From assembly GCA_903813345.2 (NCBI GenBank), contig CAIIXF020000010.1:26374425-26438424 (forward strand): a stretch of DNA of 64,000 nucleotides, in the 5' to 3' direction. Of this stretch, positions 1,721 through 61,441 are shown in pieces. This DNA comes from Owenia fusiformis. Lineage: Eukaryota > Annelida > Polychaeta > Sabellida > Oweniidae. How positions within the stretch are numbered: position 1 is the stretch's first letter; the number at the start of each line of letters is the position of its first letter. The translations under genes were made by a program, and so were the position numbers. The notes beneath the pieces were generated by a model. It was not told the DNA's origin and did not search any database. It was given only the letters and a program-made list of their open reading frames with translations.

Positions 1721-1783
1721 TCAGAGAAGAATGTCCCATATATTTGAGCAACAGTGTATTATACGAAAGAAAATGTGTTGTAC

Positions 1784-26713: not shown

Positions 26714-26786
26714 ATGCCGTATTTCACATCTTCGACGGCCCTGCTGTCAGTGGCCACACTGTGCTTATTATGCAGATCTAGTCAAG
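26714..26786 (+). CDS. Collagen gene: signal-peptide exon
   Basis: It encodes 24 residues with a classic signal peptide: a short N-region, a hydrophobic core [13 protein letters not shown], then RSSQG as a plausible cleavage region. It is preceded by an acceptor (TTTATTCCAG) four bases before the ATG and followed by a donor (CAAG then GTAATG) in phase 1. The next exon at 31555 also starts in phase 1 and reads on without a stop, which is why I link it despite a 4.8-kb intron. Confidence 0.75.
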
Positions 26787-32700: not shown

Positions 32701-35700
32701 CAAAATTTTACATTCACTCATATTTGTTGCTCCCAAAGGAATATTACATTTTGATGACATTCTGATGCCAACAATACAGGGTGGTGAACAAACATGGACA
32801 CCCCCCCCTTAAAAACAACATATATACAATGTTGTTCAATAAGTTCGCAGAAAAATGCTTTTTAATAATTTTCATTGAATTTTCACACATTCAAAAGTAT
32901 CTTGAATACTGATTTGTAAAATATCAGCATCTCTAATTTGATAAGTTAGAACTAACGGTTACGATGGCAATTGGACTATATCGCTATGCATCATTGTAAA
33001 GGCCAATGTTACATTAAAGTTCCAAACTATCTAAACAAGAAACAAAAACAAGATATATGTAATTCAATCTTGATAAATGGCTCTATGTAGAGGCAGGGCG
33101 AGCGTGAGATAACTTAAATCGTCCTTTTGACAGTATTGTGGTACTTGAAATGTAAGTAAATACTTAGGCCCTTAAAATTGACACTGACAAATTGCAATTG
33201 AAAATTTGACATCGACATTCTAACACTAAATTATATTTACAGCAGCCTGGTCTTCGTGGATAAGCAGAGATGATCCTAGTGATATTGCAGACTCGGAGGA
33301 TAGAGAGAACCTGGAGAAGGGACTCGGAGGAGTAAGTGGATGACGGATTGTCTAATATTTTAAATTGCATGCGGGTTAAGGTTACATCCTGGTCTCAGAA
33401 TGGTTACCAATGATGACAGTTTAATCTGCTTTTGAGCGAATCTTTTAAATATAAAATAGAACATATAAAGTTGAGATTTAGGTGCTTGAAGCACGCAGAC
33501 ACTTTTATGTAAATACATTTTCCAGAGCATGCCATGCCAGAACCCAGAAGCAATAGAATGCAGGACAGTAGGAACCCATATCCCTGCTTCAGAAACTGGT
33601 CAGGTGTTTAAAGAAGATGCTGATTGTTCAGTAGAAGGTGGACTGGTGTGTGTCAACAGTGAACAGGAACCAGTTTCTCAATGTTTGGACTATGAAATTA
33701 GATTTCTCTGCCCAATGCCTACCCAAAGTAAGTATATATATAAGGGTTTTGTACTGGTTGTTTTTTTATAAGGGATAAACTCCGTATCCGAGACCGACTG
33801 TACATGACAGATGTAAGGTTCTACTAAGGTTCTATACCTCATAAAGTTCCAAAATTAAAAAAACCTACCTTAAGGTACGCATTTTTTTTGAAGTTTGTGA
33901 AATTTTCACACTCATATATTGCTGAAGCAAGTTTTCTCAGTCTACATCATCAGTTAGGATATGTGATCTACTTTCTGGTAGATTTGGTCAAATTTTTATC
34001 CAGATCAAAGATCAAAATCTAGGTCAACTTTTCAAGTTTCCCAAATTTTCAATTTTCTCTCAGAATATCTTGCTAGGAATCATTTTCAAGTTCATTTAAG
34101 TATTTTAAACAATTCCCCATCTCTGACGGAGATCACATCGGATGGTTATATAATTCAGAAGAAGGTCCAATAACTTTCGACTGGGACCCCAACAATGCAT
34201 TTGTCTACATGTATAAAACAGATATAAATGGGAATTTCAACATAGATGATTCCGTCGAGTTTGATACTCTAGCATTGCCTTCGAAATCGTCATTTGGAGT
34301 TGTAATAGATTCAGGTAAATTGCTAGAATGATCTCCTGCCCTTCAGAATTTGGTCTTATTTCCAAAGAGAAAATTCAAAACACACAATAAGTGATGAAGA
34401 TATAATTAGTTAGTTAGGATCACTATTTATTGATTTATAGTCAGATAAAATGTCAGAAATAACGACATTTTCGATGTCTATATCGATCAACGTCAAGGTT
34501 GAATATTGAGTCGGAACCCTTGGAGCCGATCTTTTTGCAGTCATATACAAAAGATTATCTTTATTAGACTCTAGATTGAAAATCTACAAAAGATCGTGTG
34601 TAGTTGGGGACATGTTGTACACTTGTGTCCTTGTAAAAATGTTGCTTTCAAAATTTTACATTCACTCATATTTGTTGCTCCCAAAGGAATATTACATTTT
34701 GATGACATTCTGATGCCAACAATACAGGGTGGTGAACAAACATGGACACCCCCCCTTAAAAACAACATATATACAATGTTGTTCAATAAGTTGGCAGAAA
34801 AATGCTTTTTAATAATTTTCATTGAATTTTCACACATTCAAAAGTATCTTGAATACTGATTTGTAAAATATCAGCATCTCTAATTTGATAAGTTAGAAAT
34901 AACGGTTACGATGGCAGTTGGACTATATAGCTATGCATCATTGTAAAGGCCAATGTTACATTAAAGTTCCAAACTATCTAAACAAGAAACAAAAACAAGA
35001 TATATGTAATTCAATCTTGATAAATGGCTCTATGTAGAGGCAGGGCGAGCGTGAGATAACTTAAATCGTCCTTTTGACAGTATTGTGGTACTTGAAATGT
35101 AAGTAAATACTTAGGCCCTTAAAATTGACACTGACAAATTGCAATTGAAAATTTGACATCGACATTCTAACACTAAATTATGTTTACAGCAGCCTGGTCT
35201 TCGTGGATAAGCAGAGATGATCCTGATGATACTGCAGACTCGGAGGATAGAGAGAACCTGGAGAAGGGACTCGGAGGAGTAAGTGGATGACGGATTGTCT
35301 AATATTTAAATGGCATGCGGGTTAAGGTTACATCCTGGTCTCAGAATGGTTACCAATGATGACAGTTTAATCTGCTTTTGAGCGAATCTTTTAAATATAA
35401 AATAGAACATATAAAGTTGAGATTTAGGTGCTTGAAGCACGCAGACACTTTTATGTAAATACATTTTCCAGAGCATGCCATGCCAGAACCCAGAAGCAAT
35501 AGAATGCAGGACAGTAGGAACCCATATCCCTGCTTCAGAAACTGGTCAGGTATTTAAAGAAGGTGCTGATTGTTCAGTAGAAGGTGGGCTGGTGTGTGTC
35601 AACAGTGAACAGGAACCAGTTTCTCAATGTTTGGACTATGAAATTAGATTTCTCTGCCCAATGCCTACCCAAAGTAAGTATATATATGAGGGTTTTGTAC

Positions 35701-38700
35701 TGGTTGTTTTTTTATAAGGGATAAACTCCGTATCCGAGACCGACTGTACATGACAGATGTAAGGTTCTACTAAGGTTCTATACCTCATAAAGTTCCAAAA
35801 TTAAAAAACCTACCTTAAGGTACGCATTTTTTTTGAAGTTTGTGAAATTTTCACACTCATATATTGCTGAAGCAAGTTTTCTCAGTCTACATCATCAGTT
35901 AGGATATGTGATCTACTTTCTGGTAGATTTGGTCAAATTTTTATCTAGATCAAAGGTCAAAATCTAGGTCAACTTTTCAAGTTTCCCAAATTTTCAATTT
36001 TCTCTCAGAATATCTTGCTAGGAATCATTTTCAAGTTCATTTAAGTATTTTAAACAATTCCCCATCTCTGTCTAGATAATGATTTTACCAATTGATTTTA
36101 ATTAATTAAGGGTGAATTTCAAAGGGCTTACGGACGACTCAGCCCCTAGATAACTCATCCCTGGACAACTCATCCCCAAGACAAGCCATCCCCTGGACAA
36201 GTCATCCCCTAGACAAGTCATCCCCAAGACAACTCATCTGTTATCACATGAAGCTAAATTGTACTTTTTTTGATGTCAGTCAAACAGTGCCAGTAAAACC
36301 CTCATTTCTTGTCCTTATACATATTACATGACCTAGTATTTCATGACACAAAAATAAAATTTTCTTTCTGCATAACTATTAAAGAATACTTCAGTTATGA
36401 ACAACAAACATATTATAACATCAAAGGGCTTCTTAAATCAATTTTAGTATAATATTGAAATTGTATATCAAAAGTAAATACTTACAAAACAAATCACAGA
36501 TTAATTGGTTGATGATCTCCTTAACAAAATCATAGTTTTTTTAACAATTTTCCAGATTGACCCTCCAGGAAATCTTTGTACATGTAATATGTGTTTTGAA
36601 ACTTAAAACTGATCATATTCACAACCAAAATATTTATAAATCATTTTTAACATAATCTGAATAACAGTTCAAAGAACAAAGATTGACCAAATAATTTGAG
36701 CCTTTCAAGGCATTCACAAAATGAATTCAATTTAATGACGTCATATGGACAATGGGAGCATTGGTTCAAATTTTAAAGTCAATATATCTCTGGAAGTGTA
36801 TTGCGCATGGTTCTGAAATTTCAGATATGACTCATATTATGACTCATAAGATGACTCATATTATATTTGTAAGAAATTTCATGTAAAAATAATAATATTT
36901 CTTCTCTTGAGAAGCTATCGTGCAAAACCTTTCGAACGACCCTTGTAGAATGACCTTAAAAAGTCAGTAAACTCCAAATTATGAGTTTTTGGGGTCAATT
37001 TTAAAAGCTAAGTCATTTCAAATAAAAAGTCTGGAATCTGGAGTCTTGAATTTGAACTTGTTCAATTTCACTAATCTAGTTATACATATTCCTAAGGTTA
37101 TCTATCAGTAGGCAATATTAAAGTATAATTATAATCATAAATAGACAAGTATTATATAATGAACGCTTTTCACTTCTACAGATATCAACGCTGGAGAAGA
37201 AGTATGTACCAATTCACCGCCAACGAACGTGTTCAACTGCGACTTTGAAAACGGGACTTGCGGATTTAGCTTTCAAAGAAATGCACCTCTAGGGGTGTGG
37301 GGATTCCAGATTAAATCTGGCAGTACCCCTAGTCCAGGAACAGGTCCTACTGATGACATCGATGGTGGAGGTATTTATATTATATCCGAACTTTCGACAC
37401 AACCCATTTCAGTATTGTTAAAGCCCCTACTTCTTTAAAAGTACAGATCCAATTTATCATAAATCAGAGCTATTACTTTTTTGAAATTACAGATCCACTT
37501 TTCCATCAATCATAAATCGTTTGACATGACAATGGTATTATTTCAAGGGAGTTACCTGTTATTCGAGGCAACGGATGCTGATTCACTAGGCGTTGACTTA
37601 GCGACTTTAGAGACGCCTTTTCCTCCTGGCCAATATACTTTTTCGATGTACTACCACATGTTTGGGAGACAACTGGGGAAAATGGAGTTACGCATTGAAA
37701 CTAGTTCAGATAACAGCATAATTTGGGAACAAAGTGAGCCACAATTTGATGAATGGCGACAGATGACCGTTAATTTCAACCAAAGCGAGGAGTTTAACAT
37801 TGCTTTTATGGCAACAGCAAATGAAGGATCTCTGTCAGAAGTATGGCAAGGAGACATGGCCATAGACAATATTAACTTAATCTTCGGTAAGTGTATATGG
37901 CGACGTAAGTATCATGACATATGTCCCCATATATGTTGCCTTATAACGTTACCATTTTTGAACATAGACTAAAACCCAACATAATGAGAATGATGCCTCA
38001 TTTAGTCCCATCGGATCTCACAAGGTCTCAATAATATTAGTCTAAAAGGTCTCATCGTGCCCCATAGCCCACTAGTACAGGGTGGTCCAAAAAATTGGGA
38101 CACTCGTATTTCAAAAATAAATATTGATTTTCTTGATAAAACATGTCATATTATATAGCAGTGGATAATGTCTGTCAACCAGCGTGCGTTATATAAATAA
38201 CGTCATTTAAGTTTCAAAACAGGTTTTCCAAAACTTGCAAAAACTTGCTCCAAGCACTAGATCTCACAAGAGGGTCAAAGAAAATATGCCTAGATTCATC
38301 CCCCTAATCACTGCCTCCCCTAGAGCACACGTTCACCAACGTCTGTGACTACCATGTAAGGCAAGAACTAACAGAATTGGTGTACCATGAATCCTTTACA
38401 TCTATTCCGTCTCTTGAGGACATGATTTAATTAATGAGAAGTGATTGTCTTAACAGCATATCAATGATGCTATTGGCAAATTTAGGCCAAAATTGAGGGC
38501 TATAATTGATCAAAATGGTGGACATATTGAACGTCTGGTTATGTAAATAAAGTTAACAATAAAACTTGTTTTTGCAAGTTTTGGAAAACCCGTTTTGAAA
38601 TGAAAATGACGCCATTTATATTACAGACGCTGGTTGACAGACACATTATAATTTTGAACGTATGATCTACAAAATTAAAGATAAGTAAATTCCCCATCCA

Positions 38701-47700: not shown

Positions 47701-50700
47701 AGGAGCAAAGGGGGAAACAGGAGAGACTGGCAGTAAAGGCTCACAGGGTGATGAAGGGAGTATTGGTGCAACCGGTCTAAGTGGTGCTAAAGGAGAAGAT
47801 GGAGCTCAGGGAGATAAAGGTACACAAGGAGATGAAGGATCCATCGGTGTACCTGGCTTTAATGGATCAGACGGTGCAACTGGTCCAACTGGACCTGGTG
47901 GGCTTGTTGGAGATCCGGGTCTTGAGGGAGCAACTGGTCCCTCTGGTGCAAAAGGAATAACGGGTGAAACTGGTTCAAAAGGAATCAAGGGAGAGATCGG
48001 TTTTAAAGGTGAATTAGGGGAAAAAGGAATATCTGGGGCTAAGGGTGAAAATGGAGAAAAGGGCGACTCTGGCGATAAAGGAGCATCTGGTAACAAAGGA
48101 GATGCAGGTTCTGAAGGAGTTAAAGGAACGAAAGGTGACAACGGCGACACAGGAGCTCAAGGTATCTCTCATTATTTAAATAGATCGTCTTTATCTTGAT
48201 AACTCAAGGCATATTCCATATGTAAGTCATGTAAGTTGTTTTCACAAAGGTAGGGATAAGGTGTGATTTTGTGAAAACATTGTTATTGCAATGTTAGCTT
48301 TCTACAAGGAAGGTACAGCACATTTTTATTATGATGACAGGTTCAACTGGACCATCCGGAGAAACTGGTGCAAAGGGGGCTGTCGGTAGTCAAGGTGAGA
48401 AGGGGTCTGCTGGGGCCAATGGCACCGATGGGCAACAAGGCGCTAAAGGTGAAAGTGGTTCTAAAGGAGAATCTGGAATAGTTGGTGCAACTGGCTCAAA
48501 CGGTACTACTGGAGCAATAGGTGCTACGGGTCCCTCTGGTACAGCTGGCATCAAAGGAGGTGTTGGAGCAACAGGGCCAAGTGGGGAAAAGGGAGGACTT
48601 GGGGAAACAGGTGCTAGGGGTAAGTTGACATTAACATTTCTTGTCATTTGTTTAGCTAGTCAGTATTTAATCAGTGTTAGCTTTGAAACCAAATATATCA
48701 TTGTCTTTTATTATGCTAGTATAACTGAATAAAAGTATAAAATTATTAACATGTGCGACTGCAGGTGCTACTGGAGTAACTGGAGAAACCGGAATATCTG
48801 GAGCAACTGGTCCATCTGGAGAGCATGGCGCAACTGGAACAATTGGCGCTACAGGTCCAAGTGGTGAAAAGGGAGATGCAGGGATGGACGGTTTCAATGG
48901 TACAAGTGGTGCCACTGGCCCTAGTGGACTCAAAGGGGAAGAGGGAGATAAGGGCATAAAAGGAGGAATAGGTCCATCTGGACCATCTGGGCAAAGTGGC
49001 CCACCAGGCAATAAAGGTAGAAAATTCTTCTAATATATGTATTTGATACTTGCAAATATAGCATAGTTATTTAATATCTATATCTATGGCTTCTCATGTT
49101 AACGGTTACGTTACATTGCAGGGGAGGCTGGTGCTAATGGAAGTAAAGGAGCAAGTGGAGAGACTGGCTTGAAAGGTGATAGGGGCGAAAAGGGAATAAA
49201 AGGGAACACTGGTCTTGGGAGGAAAGGAGAACCTGGGAAAGGCGGTTTTAAAGGTGATGCAGGGGAAAATGGAACAGATGGTGCAACTGGCCCTTCTGGT
49301 GAAGATGGACAGAAAGGAGACTCTGGGGCTAAAGGAGAACCAGGAGTTGCCACTAATGGAATAAATGGAACTCAAGGTGAAAGGGGGCCTACTGGTCAGA
49401 AGGGTGATGCTGGATCGAAGGGGGATAGAGGTTCTAAAGGAGAAAATGGCGAAGTAGGACAATATGGAGCAACTGGAGTTTCTGGTGAAAAAGGGGACAA
49501 GGGGTTGAAAGGAGAAGACGGAGCAAATGGTTCGGTTGGTGCCACTGGAATAATTGGAGCAACTGGACCTTCCGGATCAGTGGGTGACAAGGGAGACGTA
49601 GGTTTGAAGGGCTCGGCTGGGGATAAAGGAGAAGCAGGTTCTATGGGGGCCACTGGTCCATCTGGAGCAACAGGAGTGGCTGGTAAGGACCAGTCAATGG
49701 TTTCGCCAAATACATAAGTTCAGCTAAAACCGAAACACACTATAATAATGAAAAAATGTATCTTGCTTGATATCGAATCAAATAGTCAATAATACGGTTC
49801 TTAAAGATTCACAGGACTTCTATCCCTGATGGAAGTGAAATCAATTTTAAATAGTTTGTTAGAAAGCTAAAAACTGTATAATCATACAATAAAATGTGAA
49901 CTTTGGTGTCTTCCACAGGATTGAATGGGACAAAAGGAGATGATGGAGAAAAGGGAGCACCTGGAAGCAAAGGCAACATGGGAGATTTTGGGGCAACTGG
50001 TACAACTGGTGCTACTGGTCCATCAGGGCTGAATGGAGACAAAGGATCTTCTGGTGATAAGGGTGCCCCTGGAGACAAGGGAGATAGGGGAGAGGCTGGT
50101 TTCAGTGGACCAGTTGGTAATCAAGGGGAAGCTGGAACACCCGGAGAAGATGGCAAAAATGGATCAAAAGGTGCAGTAGGACCTACAGGTCCCAAGGGTG
50201 AGTGGATAGACAATTATTATATACAAGCATACATGCAGTTTTGTGTACATTAAACGTAATGGGATATATGAGTAAAAGAGTATATGACACACCCATTATT
50301 CACGTTACAGGTGCAAAGGGTGAAGTGGGTGAGAAAGGCATGATTGGTGATGTTGGTGCAACTGGAGTAAGTGGTGCAACTGGACTCGATGGAGCCAAAG
50401 GAAATTCTGGAGAAAAGGGTGAAATGGGTGAAAAAGGCGTCGCGGGAATCAATGGCACAAATGGTGTAAAAGGAGACTCTGGAGTCAAAGGGGAATCTGG
50501 AACAAAGGGTGAAAATGGAGCAAAGGGAATGGCTGGTAAGATTTTTCCCGATACTACATTGAACAGTACTAATACAGCTATTGTAAGGTTGAACAATACC
50601 AAACACAGCTATTTTAATTACCTCTTTTTTATATTAGCTATGGATTCGAGAACATACACGTTGCAGTGATGTGAGGTTTCACAGAATTTTGTCTTATTAT

Positions 50701-53700
50701 CCAACCTTCACACGTTAGCACCAATTTTAGACAAATAGACATGTTTCCACATGACCATTAAATGCAAGTGATTTATTGATTTTTCTAATTTTCATTTTGA
50801 TATAAACATCCATGTTCATAGTGTAATTAAATGTTTAGGTAGCGACGGAGTGAATGGAACCAAAGGAGACAAAGGGGCCTCTGGTGAAGCCGGTGACGCT
50901 GGTGTGCAAGGTGCTACAGGAATCTCTGGAGAATTAGGAGCCACTGGTCCATCAGGAGCTACAGGGGAAACTGGCGCCACTGGTCCTTCCGGATTAAAAG
51001 GAAATCAAGGTGTCAAAGGGGAATCGGGCATAGCAGGTATAAATGGCACAAAGGGTACAAAGGGTGATGTTGGCGAAACGGGGAAGGAAGGAGCAAAGGG
51101 TGAAGCCGGAGAACAGGGAATTGCTGGAACAAATGGAACTAAAGGAGAAGATGGGATGTTAGGTGCAACTGGTCCTAGTGGTGCACCTGGGTACAATGGA
51201 ACCAATGGAGATAAGGGAGAATCTGGTGTGTCAGGACCTCCGGGTAACCCTGGAACAAAAGGTGAGACTTTTACTAATATTTCTTATGATATTTGACAAT
51301 TCAAACAAAAAAGCAATAAATCATTCCGTAACCTTACCATATATCAATATTCACAGGTCAAAAAGGCGAGTCTACTGTCGGTGATTCTGGTGAAAAGGGT
51401 GAACCAGGAGAAACTGGGTTAATAGGTGCAACTGGAAACACGGGAACCTCAGGTTTGAAAGGAAAAAAAGGAGAGGTTGGAGAGGATGGGATCGTTGGAT
51501 CAACAGGAGCCGATGGTGCGACGGGTTTTGTAGGTGCAACAGGTGCAATTGGTGCAACTGGTCCGAGTGGTACAGTTGGAAGCAAAGGAGAAAAGGGCAT
51601 CAGTGGATCATCTGGACAAAAAGGAGAAAGTGGATCCGAAGGGAATAAGGGAGACAAAGGAGACCAGGGTTTACAAGGGGAAGTTGGATTTAATGGAACT
51701 AAAGGAGAAAGTGGAGCAACGGGTTTCACAGGTACACATATAACTAAACAAGGACAGTAGGTTTATTTCATTTGCAATGTTGTTTTTATGTTCCTCTTAG
51801 TATTAGATTGACTTTGCTTCTTTTCTTTTGAATTAGCCTCTGCACATGCTTATGTTAAGTAAACATTGAGTTATTCAACTTTGCATAATTCTTATTGATT
51901 CAAGGAATGACTGGACAAATGGGTGCAACTGGGCCAAGTGGTGCAGATGGAATAAATGGTACAACTGGACTCCAAGGAGAAAAGGGCTCTATTGGAGCCA
52001 CTGGTATATACGGGGCTACTGGTATTTATGGTGCAACTGGACCATCTGGGGCCAAAGGAGGGTTAGGTGAGTGATCCTTTACAATGTTACTGATGAACAT
52101 GGTGCAAGAAGAACGCACACAAACAACAAGATCAAAGGGTCATGTCATTCATATAAACATAACATTTGACTGTGATGAGCAATAGATAACCATATGGACA
52201 ATCCGTGTTGAAATACCATGACAATTTTTTCTCCTGCTTGTTAGATTAAATTCAAATCATACTCAATACAAATTCAATTTCACGGTTTACCCTTCCGAGG
52301 AATTGCTTTACTCCACTGAAAGATAAATGACTTTTTTAATCAATTAGGAACCAAAGGTGAAGCTGGTGAAAATGGTGAAAAGGGAGAGGAAGGAGCCAAG
52401 GGAGCCGCTGGTGCCCCTGGAGATGAAGGAATTGTTGGGGCAACTGGTGCCGATGGTGCAACAGGTGCACTAGGAGCAACAGGTGTTCTGGGTGCTACAG
52501 GGCCAAGTGGGATGAAAGGAGATAAGGGTATTAGAGGTGACAATGGAACTAAAGGAGAAAGTGGGGATACTGGGGTCATGGGGTCGACTGGACCAAGCGG
52601 TGTTGATGGATTAGATGGAGCAACCGGTATAACTGGTGCAACAGGACCAATTGGAAGTAAAGGTGACAAGGGGGAGATCGGATCAACTGGGCTACAGGGA
52701 GCTACTGGAGAACAAGGTGCCACTGGAGTTCTTGGGGCCACTGGTAAGTACCAACGAAGCTTTCAGGTTAGATAACTTTACCACAGTTTATGCTATTGCT
52801 ACCGAGATATTAAGGAATGAGAAATCTGGAAAATTTGTGATACCTTAAAAGTCCACATTTCCAAGTTAGTTTTACATAGAAATTATATATTTTAACATTC
52901 ATGCAGCAATTTTTTGAATGTTTGGCAATTCCTTGGATGTGTTTCAAATGAAGACGATTTCCACTTGGCTAGCTGCTATTGTTGATCGCAAGAATGAAAT
53001 TTGTTTCCTATCGCTGACGCAAAATTAGGATTGATGCTATATTTATGTGTTACGTTTTACCGAGTTATTTTTAATACACCCGATAGATGTCTACATTGGT
53101 TATTTTATCATTTTATCGGCCGTTTGATATATTGCAATTGTATTTTCAAAAGATGGCCCCTAGTTTATAGTCTAAATGAAAAATAAAGATTCTGCATAAA
53201 GGCAAAGCTTGTTAAATCACACATAAGGATGAAGTGGGGTAGGAAACCTGAGATAACATATACAATGTATATGAAAGTATAAGTCACGACCAGAAATGAA
53301 GCTGTGATACGACGTAAAGCATATCATTATAGAAATAAGTTAGCAAAGTCAACCAGAGTGACAGAAGCCATCCTTCAAATAAAATGAACCACACGTAATA
53401 TGACGTAGCGTTTCCTCATATAAATAGTAGATTGACATGTTAGTAACTTTAAACAGTTCTAACTTTGTCACTAAAACGTGCCTCATTCAACTTTAAAAAA
53501 TTCAGACCAAGACCAACAACGAAATACGTTTTCAGACATTCCCCTCCTAACAAGTTAAGGGTTAATACACGTTTACCCTAATACATGCCTATAATCGTAT
53601 TTCCTGTACTTTTTATATAGGTCCCGAGGGTCTCAAAGGGTCTAAAGGTGAGCCTGGAATCAATGGCACAAACGGAATGACAGGACAAAAGGGTAGCAAA

Positions 53701-56700
53701 GGAGAATCTGGAAGTGATGGGTATGATGGAGCTACTGGCTTTGTTGGGGCAACTGGTACTATTGGTGCAACTGGCCCCTCGGGACAGAAAGGTGTCGGTG
53801 GTGATAAGGGTGAAGCAGGTTTGAATGGAACAAAGGGTGACATTGGAGCACCTGGAGTTAATGGTACAAAGGGAGACATTGGAGCTAAGGGAGAGATTGG
53901 AGTAAATGGTACTAAAGGAGAAAGGGGATACAAGGGAGAAGTTGGCGAAACAGGTCAACAAGGTATTAACGGAACCAAAGGATCACAAGGCGTCAAAGGT
54001 ATCAAAGGAAATACTGGTATGGATGGAGTCGACGGTGCCACTGGGCCATCAGGTCAAAAAGGAGAGAAAGGTAAAATATCATTGTATACATGCAGATCAT
54101 GAAGTTCGGGGAACTTTTCCAACATTAGTATTTCTCGGTGAATGTGATTAATACGAGAGAGAGAAATCAAGAATGACTGGTAATTGCAAGTTTATCGAAC
54201 ACCACTTAAAACCTCATTAAAGAACTACACAGTATCCTGAGTATTCATCGTAATATGATATCTCATACTTTGTCTACACAATAGGTGACACTGGTTTGAT
54301 TGGAGCTACTGGGGTTACTGGATTGAAGGGTTCTAAAGGAGAACTTGGTGCAGTGGGGGCTACTGGTCCATCTGGAGTTTTAGGAGAAGCTGGTTTGAAT
54401 GGAACTGCCGGGGCAAAGGGAGAAGCTGGCGAAAAAGGCGAACAAGGTTTGTGAAAATGTATTTAAATAATTGCCTTTACCTAGAGCTCACCAAGTTGAA
54501 GAAGGTGTAAGGCTATGAAAAATAAATGAACACAATTTTGATTTGATTGAAGGTGAAGATGGAGCAACTGGATTCATAGGCGCCACTGGAATCATCGGTG
54601 CTACGGGTCCAAGTGGATTTGATGGGTCAACAGGACCAATGGGTGCAACTGGGTTACAAGGTTTTAAGGGAGACCAGGGTGAACCAGGATTAAATGGAAC
54701 AAATGGAACACCTGGTACAAAGGGTGAAGCTGGGAGTCCTGGAGTAAAAGGACAGAAAGGCGAGCAAGTTGAAGGTGCAACTGGACTAGTTGGAGCAACT
54801 GGAGCTCCAGGTGTGGATGGTGAAAATGGAACTAAAGGGGAACAAGGTAGCAAAGGTGAACAGGGCGTCAGAGGCGTGAATGGAACTAAAGGTGAGATTG
54901 GATCAAGTGGTGCTAAAGGTGAACAAGGAGAAAGTGGAATAAATGGAACTAAAGGTGAATCTGGTGAAAAAGGATCACAAGGAGAAAAGGGAGGGATGGG
55001 CTCAAAGGGAGAGTTGGGAGTAAATGGTACAAAGGGAGATCGTGGCGAAAAGGGAGATCAAGGATTAAAAGGAGAAGATGGCATTGACGGTATTAATGGA
55101 ACTAAAGGTGACTCTGGTGATAAAGGATCCGTTGGGGATAGAGGAAATCCAGGTACAAATGGAACCAATGGGGAGAAGGGTGAAGCAGGTCTTAAAGGAA
55201 GTAAAGGTTCTGATGGTAGTATGGGTATCAAAGGAGACCCAGGTCTGAAAGGAGATGCTGGTGCAGCAGGAGTTGCTGGGGTAAATGGTACTAAAGGAGC
55301 CACTGGACCTAAAGGTGAATCTGGTGATAAGGGTGAAGATGGAGCAACAGGTTTTATAGGAGCTACTGGAATAATTGGTGCAACTGGACCATCTGGTGCA
55401 GATGGCGAAAAGGGTGAGGCAGGCAGCAAAGGAGACATAGGTGCAAACGGATCTGTTGGAGCTAATGGCACTAAGGGTGAAACTGGCAGTCCCGGTCAAG
55501 ATGGAGCTAAAGGGGAAATGGGTATCAATGGTACTAAAGGTGATACTGGTTCCAAGGGAATGTCGGGTGCTAAAGGAGACCAAGGTGCACAAGGTGTTAA
55601 TGGAACAAAGGGAATAAAAGGAGAATCTGGTGACAAAGGATCTAAAGGTGAAAATGGCTTCAATGGTACCAAAGGTGATACTGGTTTGGAAGGTGCCACT
55701 GGGTTACAAGGAGCGACGGGTCCTATTGGTATTGATGGAGCAACTGGTGAAGTTGGTGCGACTGGTGCAACAGGATTTATGGGTGCAACTGGTAAGTCAT
55801 TCTTATCATTTCAAAAGTGTGCTGCTTCATAGTGATATTGAATGATTGTTTCATCTTAATATTCACATTGTGTACAAGTAAATATAATGTTTTAAAGGAC
55901 TGATGGGTGCTACTGGACCATCTGGAATGAAAGGTGATCAAGGAGTCGAGGGTGCCAAGGGTGAGGCTGGACTAAAGGGTGAATCTGGAAATGCGGGTGT
56001 TAAAGGAGAAGCTGGTATAAAGGGAGATGCTGGCATCAATGGGACTAAGGGAGAAGTTGGAGAAACTGGAGCTCCTGGAAGTAAAGGAGACATCGGCAGC
56101 AAAGGAGATATGGGACTGAATGGAACCAAAGGAGAAGCAGGAAGTAAAGGTATGACAGATAAAACTATTCTCTGAGCTGTATCGACGTGTTAAAAGAGTC
56201 CAAAATACCAAATTCTCTTTCAAAATTATTTTTTCCATTTCATACTCCTATCATTGAGTTGAAATTGGTATTTTAAGAAACAGCAGTATATCGCACTACA
56301 TGATGGAGTACATGCATACACTCACTCACAATGCTAAAATTGTGTCGTAAAGTATTCAGAAAAACTAATAATGCTTATTAGGATCTGATGGCAGTAAAGG
56401 AAGTATGGGTGAAACAGGTACCAATGGAACTAAAGGAGATACTGGGGATAAGGGAGCTCCTGGTTATAATGGTACTGCTGGTACAGCAGGAGAGAAAGGG
56501 GACCAGGGAGCTAAAGGAGTTTTCGGTGAAAAGGGAGAACTTGGAGAAACTGGACCACAAGGAGCCAGTGGTATAAATGGAACAAAAGGTGACCAAGGTG
56601 CTAAAGGGGCATCGGGAGCCAAAGGTGGACCAGGTATGCTAAGAGAATTACTCTGAAATGGAATTGAATACATAACAGTATTGTATACTGGATGATTCTT

Positions 56701-59700
56701 GTTATTACTTAGCATTATGCAGTTGCAAGATGCACGTAGTGTAATATGCTGTAAATCTTTAATTACAGGTGATGAAGGAGAGAGGGGACTTAATGGTACA
56801 AAGGGAGAAAGTGGAAGTAAGGGAGATAAAGGTAGTAAAGGGGAATCTGGAGCACAAGGAATCCAGGGTGTTCAAGGAAACAATGGGACGAAAGGTGAAA
56901 AAGGAGATATTGGAAGCAAGGGCGATGTTGGAAACAATGGTACCAAAGGTAGTATGGGAGCAACTGGACCATCTGGTGCACAAGGTATGACAGGAATTGA
57001 TGGTGCTACTGGTGCCGAAGGACCAAAAGGAGATATGGGGGCGACTGGATTCTATGGAGCAACAGGTATAATTGGAGCAACGGGACCAAGTGGAGCCAAA
57101 GGAGAAACTGGGGCCACTGGTTTTGATGGTGCAACTGGGGAAATGGGAGCTACTGGATCAATGGGAGCCACTGGACCATCTGGTATAAAGGGTGAAAATG
57201 GTGAACAAGGTTTGAAGGGAGAAAGGGGTGAACCTGGTATTGCCATAAACGGCACTGTTGGAGAATCTGGTGAAAAAGGAGAAAGAGGAGTAATTGGTGC
57301 AACTGGAGCTGGAGGAGCAACTGGGTTCATGGGTATGTTTATTAAGAGATTTTATATTCCAAATGCAATGCGACTGTATCAGTTTTGTATTTATCGAAGC
57401 AGTATCCTTCAAATGAATCATCCCCCTACAAATATCACCTATATGTACTTGCATTACAGATTATATTATTATCCTCCACTACTTTTAAGGTGCAACTGGT
57501 ATTCAAGGAGCAACTGGAGTAAGTGGCGCTGCAGGACAAAAGGGAGATCAAGGGGAAGATGGTGCTACTGGTTTACCTGGTGCAACAGGACAAATTGGAG
57601 CAAATGGCACAGATGGTGCGACTGGCCAAATTGGTGCAACAGGTGCTATCGGAGCTACTGGCCCGGCTGGTGCTACTGGTCCAACTGGAGAAAAGGGCCA
57701 AATAGGTGTAACTGGGATGATAGGTGCCCCCGGTTTGAATGGCACAAATGGCTTAGATGGAGCAACCGGACCAACGGGAGCAATGGGAATTGCAGGTGTT
57801 AACGGAACAGATGGTGCTACCGGACCATCAGGAGCAACAGGAAACAAGGGAGCTTTTGGACCGACAGGAGCAACTGGAGTAAGTGGCGCTACAGGACAAA
57901 AGGGAGATCAAGGGGAAGATGGTGCTACTGGTTTACCTGGTGCAACAGGACAAATAGGAGCAAATGGCACAGATGGTGCCACTGGCCAAATTGGTGCAAC
58001 AGGTGCCATCGGAGCTACTGGCCCAGCTGGTGCTACTGGTCCAACTGGAGAAAAGGGCCAAATAGGTGTAACTGGGATGATAGGTGCCCCCGGTTTGAAT
58101 GGCACAAAAGGCTTAGATGGAGCAACCGGACCAACAGGAGCAATGGGAATTGCAGGTGTTAACGGAACAAATGGTGCTACTGGACCATCAGGAGCAACAG
58201 GAAACAAGGGAGCTTTTGGACCGACTGGAGCAACTGGAGTGAATGGCACTACTGGACAAAAGGGAGATCAAGGGGAAGATGGTGCAACTGGTTTATCTGG
58301 TGCAACTGGACTAATGGGATCAAATGGTACCGATGGAGCAACTGGACAAACTGGTGCGACAGGTTCTATCGGGGCTACTGGTCCAGCTGGTGCTACAGGT
58401 CCAACTGGAGAAAAAGGTCAAATAGGTGCCACAGGACTAACTGGGGCCAAGGGAGATCCAGGTACCGTCGGTATTGCAGGCGCAACTGGCCTGTCTGGCG
58501 CAGATGGGAATATGGGTGCTACTGGTGTGTCTGGTGCAACCGGAGTGCAGGGTGCAAACGGAACAACTGGCGCAACTGGGCCATCTGGGTCAACTGGTCC
58601 GACGGGTGCGACTGGTTTATCAGGAGCAACAGGAATAATGGGTTCTACTGGCCCAACAGGTAAGAATCATAGAAACATATGAATCAGGCTCAATATAAAA
58701 ACAAAGACTTGTACTATCGTACTAAACATTTAGATTTGTGCGTCAGATATCTGTTTAATAACAGGTTAGTTGAAACTGCCTTCGAACATGAATACTTGTA
58801 GCATGTAAACTTTCTTAAATTTTTGAAAGAAAAGCATACTTGAAATTTGACATATTTATATTTTTTGTTGAATAATTGCCTTAATGCTACTAGAATAAAA
58901 TGTTCGTGAAACTATTTCTAACAAATGAATTACCAGAGTGCAGCTGAAATAACATATGCTCATCTAATATTTATGTTGAATCAATATTACCTTAGGTGCT
59001 ACTGGAATAGAAGGGGCAACTGGTCCGACGGGGGCGGCTGGTCCAACTGGAGCACAAGGGGTCGCAGGCGCAACAGGGCCTTCTGGAGCTGGAGTCGATT
59101 CTGCTCTTTTGACTGCTCTAGGTATGTCTCATTTTCAGTTACAGAAAGGAGATCTAGGTTTCACCTTTACATGAACAAACTTTGGACAAATTAAGAACTA
59201 TATACGTATACAACAAAGGCATTTTCAACATTTCCAACATGGTGTGAATAATTGTTCGAGTTCACTGTGAATTGTTTCGATTAGTTACTTATATCCATTT
59301 GGGTCATTGCACAATATTTCCGAAAATATCGTCATTATTTTAGTTGATATTTTCCAGAAACAAACGAATGTGAAACTAACAACGGGAACTGCAGTGACAT
59401 TTGTATAGATACATTCAAGGGGTCCAGATGTGATTGTTCCGATGGATATGTTCTCCAAGACAACGCCCGAACGTGTGAAGGTAGTATACATTTGTATATC
59501 TTTGATTCACAGAACCTTTATATCATTATATCTATATATGCGAATTTGTCAAAATATGAATCTTTTTAATATACCAAAATTGTTGAGCACATCGTTAGTT
59601 TTTCACTTGCGATTGCATACGTGTCCACTAGAAAACCTGAAATACTGATACAAAAATTCCATTCTAGATAAAAACGAGTGCGAAGAGTTTAATGGTCAGT

Positions 59701-60904
59701 GTGAACATAATTGCACGAATACAGTTGGATCCTACAATTGTTCTTGTGATGTTGGCTACACTCTCTCCGATGATGGTCATGAGTGTTTAGGTAAGTCATC
59801 TTTAGTTCACTCATTCATGCCTACATATATGAGTTCGAGGGTTTGTTGCTCCCAAAGATATTCTTGTGACGATTTGTCATCACTGTTCAACGTTTCATTC
59901 CCATCGCAATGTCTATGACGATAAAATTCTCTTTAAGTCGGAATTCAATTTTTTGTTTATTTCTTGCATTGACATTATGATTGATAAACCTTGATTTTTC
60001 TGTTTGAAGATGTCAATGAGTGTGAAGCTGTGCCCAACATATGTGGAAGTGAAATTGGCGTGGTATGTCTCAATACATTCGGGAGTTATCACTGCCTAAG
60101 CACGACGGCCAATACTAATAGTCAGACACAAGGTAAATGTTGTTATGAAATAACTGATCATAAATTGACTGAACGTATTCATGTTTTTGCGTTTTAACAG
60201 ACCCATAATTAGATACAAACTGCAGTTGATATAACAAATGAAATAATATGAAGGCCTCCTCACGCATGAACGACCCCCCCCCCTTACGTCAACTTACGTA
60301 TACTGGCGAATATCCGCGTTCCCAATCACCAGAATTGACAAAATACACAATTCGCTGGGCTTCGATTCGTAGATTTGTTCAGGTGTGAGGAGACCTTAGT
60401 AAGAACTTATTGTTACTGTATCAATGATATCCACTAATCATGTATTTTTAAATTCAAGGGTTAGCATTGGTAAATGAAGCCCGTTCTATGGCAGCCGACA
60501 ACCAGCGGCTCATCACTGAACTAAGAGACAACGTGAAGAATGGTGAGACTAGCCAGTTGACCTTGGTTGTCTGGGCAGCCTTAGCAACAGTCGCAATTAT
60601 AGTAATAGCCGCTTTCGCATATAAACAATATAGGTCCAATAAAAACATGAAGCGCGCTATAAGCGGTTCTTCCCTGGACTCCACGTCCTCAGTTGTAGAA
60701 AACGGGCGTCAAAATACTGAGTCCGTCTCCACTGATGTTGAAGCATTGGAACCAAATTATTTCACCACCCAGTCTGAACAGAACCCGGGGGATGAAGTCT
60801 CCATTGATTATGACTTGGAAGATGAAGAGACAAGTCAGAAAACAGACTCACATAGTTCGGCAAAGAATAACACAAATACTCAATGTTCGAAAGATAGTAC
60901 GTAG
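26714..60904 (+). CDS. Giant transmembrane collagen with WxxW, MAM, mucin-like and EGF domains (45-exon model, ~4,892 aa)
   Basis: Predicted type I membrane protein with an extracellular collagen rod. Spliced exons total 14,679 nt, a multiple of three, and every junction keeps frame. Order: signal peptide (residues 1–24), beta-rich N-domain (25–196), WxxW 1 (197–293), WxxW 2 (294–390), MAM 1 (391–566), mucin-like repeat (567–730), first collagen segment with MAM 2 inside (731–1058), main collagen (about 1073–4611), three EGF-like modules (4622–4744), TM helix (4778–4799), cytoplasmic tail (4800–4892). Nearly all introns are phase 1. No fibrillar C-propeptide or NC1 domain is present, so this is not a fibrillar or basement-membrane collagen. 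Exon coordinates are in the following entries. Uncertain points: a possible upstream UTR exon, small missed exons in longer introns, and use of the duplicated exons. Function is inferred to be a cell-surface or cuticle/glycocalyx structural protein. Confidence 0.85.
26787..31554. other. Intron 1 of the collagen gene (4.8 kb)
   Basis: AT-rich intron. It contains a weak CATATTC-type repeat cluster near 26930–27010 and a complete mariner-type non-autonomous element (28874–29683). No additional exon was identified; the short ORFs in it have no domain. Confidence 0.6.
28874..29683. mobile_element. Mariner-type inverted-repeat element in intron 1, 810 bp
   Basis: The ends are TACAGTGTGTCCCATAAAAA and the complement TTTTTATGGGACACACTGTA, bounded by TA. 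The arms pair for about 160 bases with few mismatches (shared AACATTGTAAAATCACAAAA, CCAGTGATGAT and GTCCATG blocks). The interior (29050–29520) encodes no recognisable transposase. Confidence 0.85.
31555..32365 (+). CDS. Collagen gene: N-terminal beta-rich domain (three exons)
   Basis: Exons are 31555–31695 (phase 1 to 1), 31846–31997 (1 to 0) and 32143–32365 (0 to 1). Together they give about 172 residues starting [18 protein letters not shown]. Landmarks are [53 protein letters not shown] and SSFGVVIDS. The pattern (an xVxLQVxRP-like strand, a TLxxx strand, then GDxIGW) resembles an unnamed domain I associate with invertebrate extracellular multidomain proteins; I cannot give it a family name. 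It has two N-glycosylation sequons (NLT, NFT). The acceptor for the second exon was chosen at 31845 because it alone keeps phase. Confidence 0.75.
33243..33727 (+). CDS. Collagen gene: WxxW domain 1 (two exons)
   Basis: Exons 33243–33331 and 33526–33727. The product starts [19 protein letters not shown] and continues [14 protein letters not shown]…ETGQVF…[12 protein letters not shown]…[11 protein letters not shown]. This is the mucin/CILP-type WxxW domain (PF13330-like): WxxW at the start, Asp/Asn-Pro, AIECR, G-L-V-C and CLDYEVRxxC. In mucins and cartilage intermediate layer protein the domain is extracellular and disulfide-bonded. All expected cysteines are present. It is phase 1 at both ends, so the module can be duplicated or skipped without frameshift. 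Confidence 0.9.
34136..34314 (+). pseudogene. Orphan partial exon left by the tandem duplication
   Basis: It repeats the last 60 codons of the third N-domain exon ([12 protein letters not shown] to GVVIDS) with an intact frame and donor, but lacks the original acceptor and first 34 bases. Joining the WxxW 1 exon (phase 1) directly to the next WxxW exon (phase 1) skips it in frame. An upstream TTTAAG at 34110 could act as a cryptic acceptor with an open frame but would break phase with the preceding exon. Confidence 0.75.
35190..35673 (+). CDS. Collagen gene: WxxW domain 2 (two exons)
   Basis: Exons 35190–35278 and 35472–35673. It is nearly the same protein as WxxW 1. The visible changes are DDPSDIA to DDPDDTA and KEDADC to KEGADC, plus two silent changes. 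All cysteines and splice sites are kept, so both copies look functional. The four or so amino-acid changes against two silent ones in about 290 bases are too few for a selection claim. Confidence 0.88.
35674..37181. other. Intron with repeat debris
   Basis: It holds the end of the duplicated unit (to 36070). A short tandem array of about 17–18 bp lies at 36136–36239 (variants of CTCATCCCCTGGACAA, roughly six units). The tail of the AGGTCA-type interspersed repeat ends near 37085 with GAACTTGTTCAATTT. No exon was seen. Confidence 0.6.
37182..37886 (+). CDS. Collagen gene: MAM domain 1 (two exons)
   Basis: Exons 37182–37370 and 37548–37886. MAM domains are extracellular beta-sandwich adhesion modules that often mediate dimer formation. 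The hallmark [12 protein letters not shown] opens the domain; WGFQ, the [12 protein letters not shown] turn, [31 protein letters not shown] and [10 protein letters not shown] follow in the usual order. Both ends are phase 1, and the split after GGG is the one shared with MAM 2. The domain lacks the usual DHT after GP (it has DDI), which is a modest deviation. Confidence 0.93.
37887..39021. other. Intron carrying a mariner-type element
   Basis: The intron is mostly occupied by the 713-bp inverted-repeat element at 38076–38788. The rest is AT-rich with no exon seen. Confidence 0.7.
38076..38788. mobile_element. Mariner-type inverted-repeat element, 713 bp
   Basis: The ends are TACAGGGTGGTCCAAAAAA and its complement, on TA. 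The arms pair for about 190 bases (shared GATTTTCTTGATAAAACATG-like, GTCAACCAGCGT-like and AAACAGGTTTTCC-like blocks). There is no transposase reading frame in the interior, so it is non-autonomous. Confidence 0.85.
39022..39570 (+). CDS. Collagen gene: mucin-like repeat exon leading into collagen
   Basis: A single 549-nt exon, phase 1 to 1. It opens [16 protein letters not shown], then about nine diverged 48-nt repeats (39064–39515) whose consensus is [16 protein letters not shown], with TESPNSNS variants, ending [22 protein letters not shown], the first Gly-X-Y triplets. The stretch is rich in Ser and Thr (O-glycan sites) and in NGT, NGS, NTT and NST sequons, so it would be a heavily glycosylated, extended stalk. 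The long open frames in the other plus frame and on the minus strand arise because the 48-nt unit is open in several frames; splice phase identifies the true one. Confidence 0.9.
39064..39515. repeat. 48-nt coding tandem repeat (VNTR-like)
   Basis: Units of ACTCAGGCACCTAATGG… then GAGTTACCTAATGG… alternate with 24-nt half-units. Several adjacent units are identical at DNA level, the pattern expected of a copy-number-variable minisatellite. Confidence 0.93.
39571..40071. other. Intron, nothing recognised
   Basis: AT-rich intron with no Gly-X-Y stretch in any plus frame. Confidence 0.5.
40072..40872 (+). CDS. Collagen gene: first collagen segment (two exons)
   Basis: Exons 40072–40350 (31 triplets) and 40801–40872 (8 triplets). 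Both begin by completing a split Gly codon and end on the first base of one (phase 1 to 1). The sequence is regular Gly-X-Y ([19 protein letters not shown]…). It joins the mucin-like stalk to the collagen/MAM exon at 41055. The first exon closely resembles the one at 44200 (shared [11 protein letters not shown] start and [14 protein letters not shown] near the end), so one was probably copied from the other. Confidence 0.9.
41055..41758 (+). CDS. Collagen gene: short collagen stretch fused to MAM domain 2 (two exons)
   Basis: Exons 41055–41291 and 41420–41758. The first exon starts [17 protein letters not shown], the only classical GPP triplets seen in the protein, then passes directly into MAM 2 ([37 protein letters not shown]). 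The second carries [34 protein letters not shown] and [14 protein letters not shown]. It is a close paralogue of MAM 1: exon lengths, split site and even intron sequence (CAACCCATTTCAGTATTGTT) are shared, so the whole two-exon cassette was duplicated inside the gene. Confidence 0.93.
41759..42219. other. Intron, nothing recognised
   Basis: AT-rich intron between MAM 2 and the main collagen region; no exon or repeat pair seen. Confidence 0.5.
42220..43338 (+). CDS. Collagen gene: start of the main triple helix (three exons)
   Basis: Exons 42220–42477, 42591–43001 and 43087–43338. The first opens with a short non-collagen linker [14 protein letters not shown], whose cysteine could cross-link chains at the start of the helix, then regular triplets ([13 protein letters not shown]…). 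The second contains one imperfection, GETGVGSIG, where a residue is missing from a triplet, which explains why its length (411) is not a multiple of nine. The third is 28 perfect triplets. KGE and KGD sequences, which favour inter-chain salt bridges in triple helices, are frequent. Confidence 0.92.
43339..44199. other. Intron (861 bp), nothing recognised
   Basis: I saw no Gly-X-Y exon in this longer intron, but a very short one could have been missed. Confidence 0.5.
44200..45879 (+). CDS. Collagen gene: main helix, part 2 (three exons)
   Basis: Exons 44200–44682, 45108–45392 and 45586–45879. Gly-X-Y runs on in phase 1. Three helix imperfections occur: GPSGIGVKG in the first, [12 protein letters not shown] in the second and [12 protein letters not shown] (four residues between glycines) in the third. 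The second exon begins [10 protein letters not shown], containing an RGD tripeptide. Sequons of the type GFNGT, GVNGT, GINGT and GYNGT are present. The intron between the first two exons (425 bp) shows nothing else. Confidence 0.92.
46210..48161 (+). CDS. Collagen gene: main helix, part 3 (three exons)
   Basis: Exons 46210–46722 (57 triplets), 46970–47347 (42) and 47514–48161 (72), all exact multiples of nine with no break in Gly-X-Y. The first contains the recurrent Thr/hydrophobic cluster [16 protein letters not shown]. Charged stretches such as [10 protein letters not shown] and [10 protein letters not shown] alternate with the neutral GATGPSG type. The preceding intron (45880–46209) has AT-rich filler only. 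Confidence 0.93.
48341..50197 (+). CDS. Collagen gene: main helix, part 4 (four exons)
   Basis: Exons 48341–48619, 48765–49016, 49122–49682 and 49919–50197. All are regular Gly-X-Y except the third, which has two imperfections: GNTGLGRKG and [12 protein letters not shown]. It also has a GKGGFKG stretch with Gly in Y. The third carries [13 protein letters not shown]. Both 279-nt exons have 31 triplets and the 252-nt exon 28, sizes that recur elsewhere in the gene. Confidence 0.93.
50311..52743 (+). CDS. Collagen gene: main helix, part 5 (five exons)
   Basis: Exons 50311–50535, 50839–51261, 51357–51731, 51905–52066 and 52348–52743. One imperfection, GESTVGDSG, lies at the start of the third. 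Thr-rich hydrophobic clusters appear in the third ([19 protein letters not shown]) and fourth ([19 protein letters not shown]). The fifth contains [11 protein letters not shown], a second RGD tripeptide next to an NGT sequon. Intervening introns are short and empty. Confidence 0.92.
52744..53620. other. Intron (877 bp), nothing recognised
   Basis: No collagen-like exon or repeat was seen. It is AT-rich with the usual low coding potential. Confidence 0.5.
53621..55791 (+). CDS. Collagen gene: main helix, part 6 (three exons, including a 1,239-nt exon)
   Basis: Exons 53621–54070 (50 triplets), 54285–54446 (18) and 54553–55791 (1,239 nt, 413 residues). The last is the longest exon in the gene and contains at least 13 NGT sequons in the frame Gly-X-Asn-Gly-Thr-Lys-Gly, one imperfection (GEQVEGATG) and two Thr/hydrophobic clusters near its start and middle. 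The donor after 54446 is weak (GTTTGT) but is the only one that keeps the frame to the next acceptor. Confidence 0.92.
55898..57332 (+). CDS. Collagen gene: main helix, part 7 (three exons)
   Basis: Exons 55898–56149, 56382–56633 and 56769–57332. The first two are 28 triplets each. The third has one imperfection, [12 protein letters not shown], and the cluster [23 protein letters not shown] and KGE motifs are common. The acceptors (TTTAAAG, CTTATTAG) are short but consistent in phase. Confidence 0.92.
57490..59121 (+). CDS. Collagen gene: end of the main helix (two exons) with 120-residue repeats
   Basis: Exons 57490–58659 (exactly 130 triplets) and 58996–59121. The first is dominated by GATG triplets, has little charge compared with upstream exons, and contains a 360-nt tandem repeat starting at 57508, 57868 and 58228. 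The second ends the helix: [19 protein letters not shown], where the Gly-X-Y pattern stops ahead of the EGF modules. No helix imperfection occurs in the first exon. Confidence 0.93.
57508..58587. repeat. 360-nt coding tandem repeat, about three copies
   Basis: CAACTGGAGT with its flanks recurs exactly 360 bases apart. Copies 1 and 2 differ at only a few positions, while copy 3 is more diverged, especially towards its end. 360 nt is 40 triplets, so the helix register is kept. Confidence 0.92.
58660..58995. other. Intron, nothing recognised
   Basis: AT-rich intron between the last two collagen exons. Confidence 0.5.
59358..60132 (+). CDS. Collagen gene: three EGF-like modules (three exons)
   Basis: Exons 59358–59480, 59668–59790 and 60010–60132, each 123 nt and phase 1 to 1, the classic shuffled EGF exon. 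Module 1 ([16 protein letters not shown]…[17 protein letters not shown]) and module 2 ([16 protein letters not shown]…[17 protein letters not shown]) have all six cysteines; the DxNEC start and FxGSxxC/VGSYNC segments fit calcium-binding EGF. Module 3 starts [12 protein letters not shown] and has FGSYHC but then ends [12 protein letters not shown], losing the last two cysteines. Tandem calcium-binding EGFs usually form a stiff rod, here between the collagen and the membrane. Confidence 0.93.
60133..60458. other. Intron, nothing recognised
   Basis: Last intron of the gene; it carries a C-rich run (about 60268–60280) and no exon. Confidence 0.5.
60459..60904 (+). CDS. Collagen gene: last exon, juxtamembrane helix, TM segment and cytoplasmic tail
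   Basis: The exon begins in phase 1. Residues [20 protein letters not shown] and on to [10 protein letters not shown] form a predicted helix with spaced hydrophobics that could assist trimer formation. Then [20 protein letters not shown] is a single TM helix followed by [12 protein letters not shown], a positive stop-transfer stretch, so the N-terminus and collagen are outside. The tail of about 93 residues is Ser/Thr and acidic-rich ([23 protein letters not shown]), suggestive of phosphorylation but with no known motif. The stop is TAG at 60902–60904. Confidence 0.9.
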
Positions 60905-61435: not shown

Positions 61436-61441
61436 AATAAA
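61436..61441 (+). terminator. Poly(A) signal AATAAA for the collagen gene
   Basis: A canonical AATAAA lies about 530 bases after the stop, with a T/G-rich stretch (GTGTTTGTTGTCG) about 40 bases further on. It is the best 3' end candidate; AT richness means other AATAAA matches are not rare. Confidence 0.5.

Follow-up and report, generated by a model that had tools for sequence, protein, structure and literature searches.

A Putative Type I Transmembrane Collagen with a Micrometre-Long Helix and Its Relatives in the Genome

The 64-kb stretch of DNA analysed here (the window, C10:26374425-26438424) probably contains a single gene, belonging to a family, that encodes a type I transmembrane collagen; its product would form a rod of the epidermal cuticle or glycocalyx tethered at its C-terminus. 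What is read from the sequence is a secretory start, a long Gly-X-Y region, EGF-like modules, one transmembrane (TM) segment, and a cytoplasmic motif conserved among paralogues and degenerate in the window gene. The preliminary description of this locus had presented a transmembrane collagen of 45 exons with a helix of about 1 µm. As an observation it is confirmed as a whole, every element that it lists being located where it says, and its interpretation of the locus is partly supported. Judged by its homologues, the locus belongs to a gene family in the genome and is not a singleton.

Structure of the Gene

The genome searched comprises 498 Mb in 525 contigs. On the plus strand of the window, 30 open frames (at least 10 amino acids) located at approximately 39–59 kb carry Gly-X-Y runs of at least five triplets, the longest run being 131 triplets; on the minus strand of the 64-kb window no open frame carries such a run (longest, four). 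A splice-aware dynamic programme, with start and stop fixed to the positions of the preliminary description, returned 76 exons, many of them short. Hand curation discarded short exons that no domain supported and rejoined open frames that had been split, leaving a set of 45 that, being hand-curated from a fixed start and stop, is not a blind prediction. The curated model extends on the plus strand from the ATG at 26714 to the stop codon at 60902-60904, with 14,625 nt encoding 4,874 amino acids, no internal stop, and 44 introns that are all GT-AG. When the programme was re-run with free start and stop, 34 of the 45 curated exons were recovered exactly and many short ones were added, a result that is partly circular because its scores for codons and splice sites had been derived from the curated model itself. 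The exons had been described as phase-consistent, which they are, but the value of this consistency as evidence is weak because 41 of the 44 introns are in phase 1. The domain-bearing exons of the curated set are supported by Pfam matches and by paralogous sequences.

Other features were also observed in the window and the genome. The window contains an open frame of 522 residues that encodes a reverse transcriptase domain (22328-23893, +; PF00078, E 6.8e-33), a 245-residue open frame matching the rhodopsin-family GPCRs (1724-2458, −; PF00001, E 3.2e-29), and tandem repeats at 20554-21570 (476 bp, 2.1 copies) and 6215-7113 (about 79–160 bp). On contig C6, the erythrocruorin-linker domain (PF16915) has three matches above the cut-off, and the LDL-A and linker pieces of one C6 gene match an extracellular hemoglobin linker L2 (2gtl_N, from Lumbricus; query residues 6-161, E 7.8e-10). 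The linker-like genes favour an annelid; another lophotrochozoan is less likely, although such genes may also exist outside annelids and the LDL-A module contributes part of this score.

Protein Organisation

Exon 1 (26714..26786, +) encodes the start codon and a predicted signal peptide (24 residues in this exon; about residues 1-25 of the chain). Two more in-frame ATGs are located upstream, at 26681 and 26687, making three nested start codons, and the gene may also have a 5' UTR exon before them, since the ATG lies 4 nt past an AG with a pyrimidine-rich tract. With the thresholds used, exon 1 is the only signal-peptide-like exon on the plus strand between 26 and 60 kb. The highest-scoring 19-residue hydrophobic windows of the protein are the TM segment (2.72) and the signal peptide (1.43), followed by a next best of 1.17.

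The N-domain (about residues 26-186) is encoded on the plus strand by exons 2-4 (31555-31695, 31876-31997, and 32143-32365), and homologues of it precede collagen elsewhere in the genome. The Pfam search with this domain gave nothing above chance; an assignment to the L-type lectins was rejected, as the matches are sub-threshold (E 0.054 and 0.044) with bit scores far below the cut-off. Profile and sequence searches of the PDB each returned one chance-level match (E 1 and 0.92). Two WxxW domains (PF13330) follow on the same strand, encoded by exons 5-6 (33243-33331 and 33526-33727; residues 187-283, E 1.4e-21) and exons 7-8 (35190-35278 and 35472-35673; residues 284-380, E 8.4e-21), and then a first MAM domain (PF00629), encoded by exons 9-10 (37182-37370 and 37548-37886, +; about residues 400-561, E 6e-21). 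Exon 11 (39022..39576, +) encodes a Thr/Ser/Asn/Pro-rich stalk with 24/48-bp repeats and then the first Gly-X-Y triplets. A short collagen block (residues 722-879) occupies exons 12-13 (40072-40350 and 40783-40872, +) and continues into exon 14, which together with exon 15 (41055-41291 and 41420-41758, +) encodes the second MAM domain (about residues 900-1054; PF00629, E 2.5e-20).

The main collagen region (42241..59121, +) is encoded by exons 16-41, all of whose introns are in phase 1. Exons 16-22 are located at 42241-42477, 42591-43001, 43087-43338, 44200-44682, 45108-45365, 45586-45879, and 46210-46722; exons 23-29 at 46970-47347, 47514-48161, 48341-48619, 48765-49016, 49122-49682, 49919-50197, and 50311-50535; exons 30-36 at 50839-51261, 51357-51731, 51905-52066, 52348-52743, 53621-54070, 54285-54446, and 54553-55791; and exons 37-41 at 55898-56149, 56382-56633, 56769-57332, 57490-58659, and 58996-59121. 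The proposed helix of about 3,540 residues and near 1.0 µm agrees with the model, in which it covers 3,531 residues (1064-4594), or approximately 1.01 µm at 0.286 nm per residue, with 1,171 triplets in runs of three or more and nine interruptions of two residues each. The X position is occupied mainly by Ala (22.6%) and Glu (16.7%), with 8.5% Pro, and the Y position by Lys (21.6%) and Thr (21.4%), with 4.1% Pro. Of the 98 N-glycosylation sequons in the protein, 64 fall within the main helix. A 360-bp tandem repeat (120 codons, 2.6 copies) lies inside the helix at 57506..58428 (+), and the exon at 57490-58659 compared with itself at the 120-codon lag differs at 35, 36, and 81 sites in the first, second, and third codon positions, respectively.

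Downstream of the helix, exons 42-44 (59358-59480, 59668-59790, and 60010-60132, +) encode EGF-like modules 1-3 (PF07645/PF14670). The Pfam families EGF_CA (3.7e-14) and FXa_inhibition (3.9e-17) each match two stretches of this region. The three modules that had been proposed are all present; however, the third contains four cysteines and not six, as in the paralogous genes A and C, the first two having six each, and on its own it scores slightly below the EGF_CA cut-off (24.6 vs 27 bits). Exon 45 (60459..60904, +) encodes a juxtamembrane segment, a 22-residue TM segment (residues 4760-4781), and a 93-residue cytoplasmic tail that ends at the stop codon. A possible polyadenylation signal, AATAAA, is found at 61436..61441 (+), and another at 61563. 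The type I topology, with a signal peptide and a single TM segment near the C-terminus, holds in the model and gains stronger support through the paralogues. At the aligned place of the paralogues' cytoplasmic motif, the window tail carries a diverged version of 11 residues in which the exact EPNF-x-CD is absent.

Heptad periodicity of the juxtamembrane segment was significant in three of seven segments, those of gene A and the loci C12 and G4 (56, 32, and 0 of 2000 shuffles, respectively, reaching the signal); the corresponding counts were 595 in the window gene, 917 in gene B, 856 in gene C, and 479 in locus F4. The restriction of the signal to A, C12, and G4 counts against the claim of C-terminal trimerisation, and a coiled-coil stalk as an established trimeriser of the window gene was rejected (595/2000). 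Furin-type sites (R-x-[KR]-R, R-x-x-R) were not found in the whole window protein, so that shedding, if any, would be due to another protease; it has three dibasic sites, two of them within the helix and the third in the cytoplasmic tail.

Internal Duplications and Related Loci

The pair of WxxW domains is a tandem duplication with about 99% identity. Aligned over 1,949 columns, the two copies, 32176-34124 and 34125..36070 (+), show 16 mismatches and four gap openings (98.97% identity). The edge of the duplication falls inside exon 4, so that the second, truncated exon 4, which is unused in the model, lacks the original acceptor and the first 33 nt. This 1.95-kb duplication could be real or could be an assembly or haplotype artefact. 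In the exon stretches compared, the two exons of the MAM pairs show 88.9% and 78.8% identity; the intron within the pairs reaches 86.7% (128 aligned columns, 49 gap columns), while the outer introns do not align (42–45%). Since the pairs, located one on each side of the collagen block, share this internal intron, one copy appears to have been copied from the other within the locus. Between the two copies of the second MAM exon, the differences by codon position are 18, 15, and 39; of 112 codons, 23 changed synonymously and 33 non-synonymously, which suggests mild constraint. From these duplication patterns, the WxxW/MAM/stalk block looks like an elaboration inserted into a simpler N-domain, collagen, EGF, and TM plan.

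Such a plan is found in paralogues. Their models are raw output of the dynamic programme with spurious short exons, and only exons bearing domains or Gly-X-Y were counted. Gene A (C10:12293005 to about 12309.3 kb) encodes a signal peptide, N-domain, collagen, three EGF-like modules, TM segment, and tail, without MAM or WxxW. Its N-domain exons, 122 and 223 nt long, match window exons 3-4 in length and entry phase, and an intron of 194 nt separates its N-domain from the collagen, which has 1,003 triplets when runs of at least six are counted. From EGF to tail, 99 of 248 aligned columns are identical between the window gene and gene A (40%, E 4e-54; 4.9e-54 when the DNA was re-read). Gene B contains 1,354 triplets by the same count, followed by two EGF modules and a partial third, a TM segment, and a tail. 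Gene C (C10:23307483-23356673) is a single 49-kb open frame of 16,397 codons, of which the Gly-X-Y run fills 16,371, giving 5,457 uninterrupted triplets and a predicted length of 4.68 µm; three EGF modules and a TM exon with tail follow the collagen frame. Its X position is mostly Ala (59.6%) and Ser (36.7%) and its Y position almost only Thr (97.5%). Although Gly is what defines the run, the run occupies nearly the entire frame and the third bases of its Gly codons are nearly random (entropy 1.84 bits), which points to selection on the protein and not to a recent expansion of one DNA word. The N-terminus of gene C was not found, and a profile search of the stretches examined recognised no N-domain in genes B and C. 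Thr at Y amounts to 60.2% in A, 87.7% in B, 97.5% in C, and 64.9% in C182. At C12:4627109, collagen and TM segment are located in a single open frame, independent of splice inference, with a tail without EPNF-x-CD.

The cytoplasmic motif LEPNFLCDxxSER, or a close form, is common to five loci. A degenerate pattern for EPNF-x-CD has six matches in the 498 Mb (C4:2872331, C4:6520726, and C10:12309022, 12331498, 23362022, and 23362133), and none with the reversed control. All six fall within TM-tail exons of family loci, C4:6520726 being known from its TM-tail exon alone. At the F4 locus, collagen matches on the same strand are located about 31–34 kb upstream, with none in the 6 kb examined. Further N-domain and collagen neighbours occur on C10 near 3.30, 14.79, and 15.24 Mb and on C182; the pair at 15.24 Mb (locus D, about C10:15238181-15244180) is separated by 6,000 N. 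The collagen listing, with 150 of 1,779 candidates scored, is a lower bound, as are those for MAM and WxxW, so that further collagens bearing these two domains may exist. The order of collagen, EGF, and TM is shared by the window gene with genes A, B, and C, and the juxtamembrane segment and homologous tail are also present in the window gene.

The N-domain occurs in other settings as well. At C1:55203000-55208999, two tandem N-domain homologues are followed by a long Thr-rich repeat stalk in one large open frame, which suggests that the N-domain also heads mucin-like proteins. At C10:14782112-14784654, a raw model places the N-domain directly before two EGF-like modules with no collagen between.

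Genome-wide, WxxW has at least 50 matches, two of them in the window gene and none of the others listed within 1 Mb of an identified family locus. MAM has at least 140 matches (150 of 276 candidates scored), at least three of them on C10, two being in the window gene. Among the matches listed, no MAM was scored beside another identified family locus, so that the splicing of the insert has no paralogue to confirm it. By domain content, the window gene is the most domain-rich member of the family seen.

Relationship to Described Collagens

The architecture had been called undescribed, and this stands within the open-access literature searched, where, among the full-text matches listed, no paper with the domain order of the window gene was recognised. 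The closest printed relatives in domain content, going by excerpts of the paper, are the EGF-domain collagens of the Lingula shell, in which modules of the EGF, EGF_CA, or FXa_inhibition type accompany the helix (Luo et al. 2015, PMC4595640). As described there, they resemble the window family in having collagen and EGF in one chain, in being many proteins with tandem duplication, and in being lophotrochozoan; they differ in their shell-matrix role, and the excerpts do not mention TM segments, MAM, WxxW, or the N-domain (PMC4595640).

Annelid cuticle collagens are reported, in the part of the source considered, to possess globular domains and a very long helix, and the stability of that of Riftia is tied to much glycosylated Thr (PMC11766948). 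By sequence, the window gene would share with them a very long helix (1.01 µm; 4.68 µm in gene C) and N-terminal heads. However, a membrane anchor, MAM, WxxW, and EGF are not mentioned in that part (PMC11766948), and the comparison is one of description, not of sequence. Giant collagens of Alvinella, Paralvinella, and Eisenia, according to excerpts of another study, reach up to 8,859 residues (Alvinella) (PMC12403961). These giant collagens are given as Pro-rich (G-P-Y 33–40%, G-X-P 22–33%) and no domain architecture is described for them there (PMC12403961), in contrast to the window helix, in which Pro occupies 8.5% of X and 4.1% of Y positions. The same excerpts state that the siboglinid gene predictions, Riftia included, contain no collagen of alvinellid-like length (PMC12403961), so that the parallel with Riftia rests on protein work.

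The animal transmembrane collagens known as MACITs (collagens XIII, XXIII, XXV, and COL-99) are, in the excerpts considered, like the window gene in having a membrane anchor and an interrupted helix (PMC4678570). They are type II proteins with an N-terminal anchor and a C-terminal cysteine motif, whereas the window gene is predicted to be type I with a C-terminal anchor (PMC4678570 for the MACITs). The order found in the window protein is a signal peptide (residues ~1-25), then Gly-X-Y, then the TM segment (4760-4781), which is not a type II arrangement; the nine two-residue interruptions in 3,531 residues do agree with an interrupted helix. Fibrillar collagens possess a C-terminal COLFI domain, which the window gene lacks: COLFI was absent among the 12 families at E up to 0.1 in a Pfam scan of the C-terminal 313 residues. 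Bacterial surface collagen-like proteins such as Scl and BclA also combine a head domain, a Thr-rich Gly-X-Y rod, and a surface anchor. Their domains and anchoring are unrelated to those of the window gene, and the likeness is only an analogy.

Alternative Explanations

Whether the model joins two neighbouring genes, one for the N-domain, WxxW, and MAM part (26.7–38 kb) and one for the collagen, EGF, and TM part (39–61 kb), bears directly on the architecture. Introns in phase 1 permit any joining, 13 AATAAA words are located between 36 and 46 kb, some of them within exons, and among the matches listed no MAM or WxxW was scored near another identified family locus. Against such a division, exon 11 fuses the stalk with Gly-X-Y and exon 14 fuses Gly-X-Y with MAM, each in one open frame, which argues for a single gene, as does the presence of one signal-peptide-like exon in 26–60 kb, with none before the collagen at the thresholds used. 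The N-domain, moreover, belongs to collagen genes, preceding collagen in gene A and others, which supports the single-gene reading, and the MAM pairs flanking the collagen block share their internal intron (86.7% over 128 columns). Two merged genes are therefore an improbable explanation. An assembly artefact or a decayed gene is more improbable still, even with a 99% duplication of 1.95 kb in the locus and a highly repetitive helix: no stop interrupts the 14.6 kb of modelled coding sequence and every intron is GT-AG (features that the modelling itself partly imposes), both the 120-codon repeats (35, 36, 81) and the MAM copies (18, 15, 39) differ mostly at third codon positions, and the C-terminal part is 40% identical to gene A. 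For the WxxW duplication alone, an artefact seems possible.

The remaining alternatives concern the fate and role of the protein. It could be a secreted cuticle collagen, in which the EGF-TM-tail unit acts as a temporary anchor and trimerising handle before the rod is cut off into a fibrous cuticle. Annelid cuticle collagens are, in the excerpts of the source, very long molecules with globular domains (PMC11766948), and furin-type cleavage is described, in part of a further source, for some collagens, including the transmembrane MACITs and the cuticle collagens of C. elegans (PMC10538796). However, the window protein has no furin-type site, although other proteases could act, and the conserved cytoplasmic motif argues for a role of the anchored form, so that this account is less likely than not. 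Slightly less likely still is a membrane-tethered gel or mucin-like glycocalyx molecule in place of a structural cuticle rod; the mucin-like stalk, the WxxW domains (named after mucin-2), the 64 sequons of the helix and 98 of the chain, and the tandem N-domain homologues before a long Thr-rich stalk on C1 are consistent with it, but a near-continuous triple helix dominates the protein and its sisters are mostly collagen. Under the preferred reading of a single anchored collagen, the cuticle or glycocalyx function of the window gene is an inference from its architecture and relatives, and the mature rod may either stay anchored or be cut off after assembly. The composition of the window helix, with 21% Thr at Y and much Glu and Lys compared with its Thr-rich sisters, counts against this reading.

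Proposed Assembly Model and Implications

If the preferred reading is correct, the chain would enter the ER N-terminus first, and the EGF/juxtamembrane/TM unit would be inserted last. This membrane-bound C-terminal unit could hold three chains side by side, so that folding of the triple helix would start C-terminally and grow toward the N-terminus, the unit thus taking over what the C-propeptide does in fibrillar collagens. The resulting rod of approximately 1 µm would project from the apical surface of epidermal cells, and the N-domain, WxxW, and MAM heads at its far tip may connect the rods with one another or with cuticle, mucus, or tube material. Thr at Y (21% here and 60–98% in the sisters), probably glycosylated as in Riftia, would stabilise the helix instead of hydroxyproline at that position. 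The tail motif, LEPNFLCDxxSER or a close form in the sisters and diverged in the window gene, may recruit a cytoplasmic partner.

A broader and more tentative proposal is that the family encodes annelid-type cuticle collagens and that annelid cuticle collagens are made as C-terminally anchored type I proteins, with the membrane as the template that trimerises and aligns them, rods reaching 4.7 µm whose helix near-complete and probably glycosylated Thr at Y stabilises in place of hydroxyproline, and a conserved cytoplasmic motif that reports on or organises them from the inside.

The combination of a C-terminal anchor with micrometre-long helices reverses the topology of the MACITs and suggests another route by which long helices may be nucleated and aligned. 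A membrane in the role of the C-propeptide is a suggested way to start very long triple helices. Gene C, with its predicted 5,457 uninterrupted triplets and almost only Thr at Y, would be a strong case for a helix stabilised without hydroxyproline at this position. The family provides candidate genes for worm cuticle material together with a cytoplasmic motif, and suggests a way in which skin cells might build a collagen cuticle on their surface and keep it attached.
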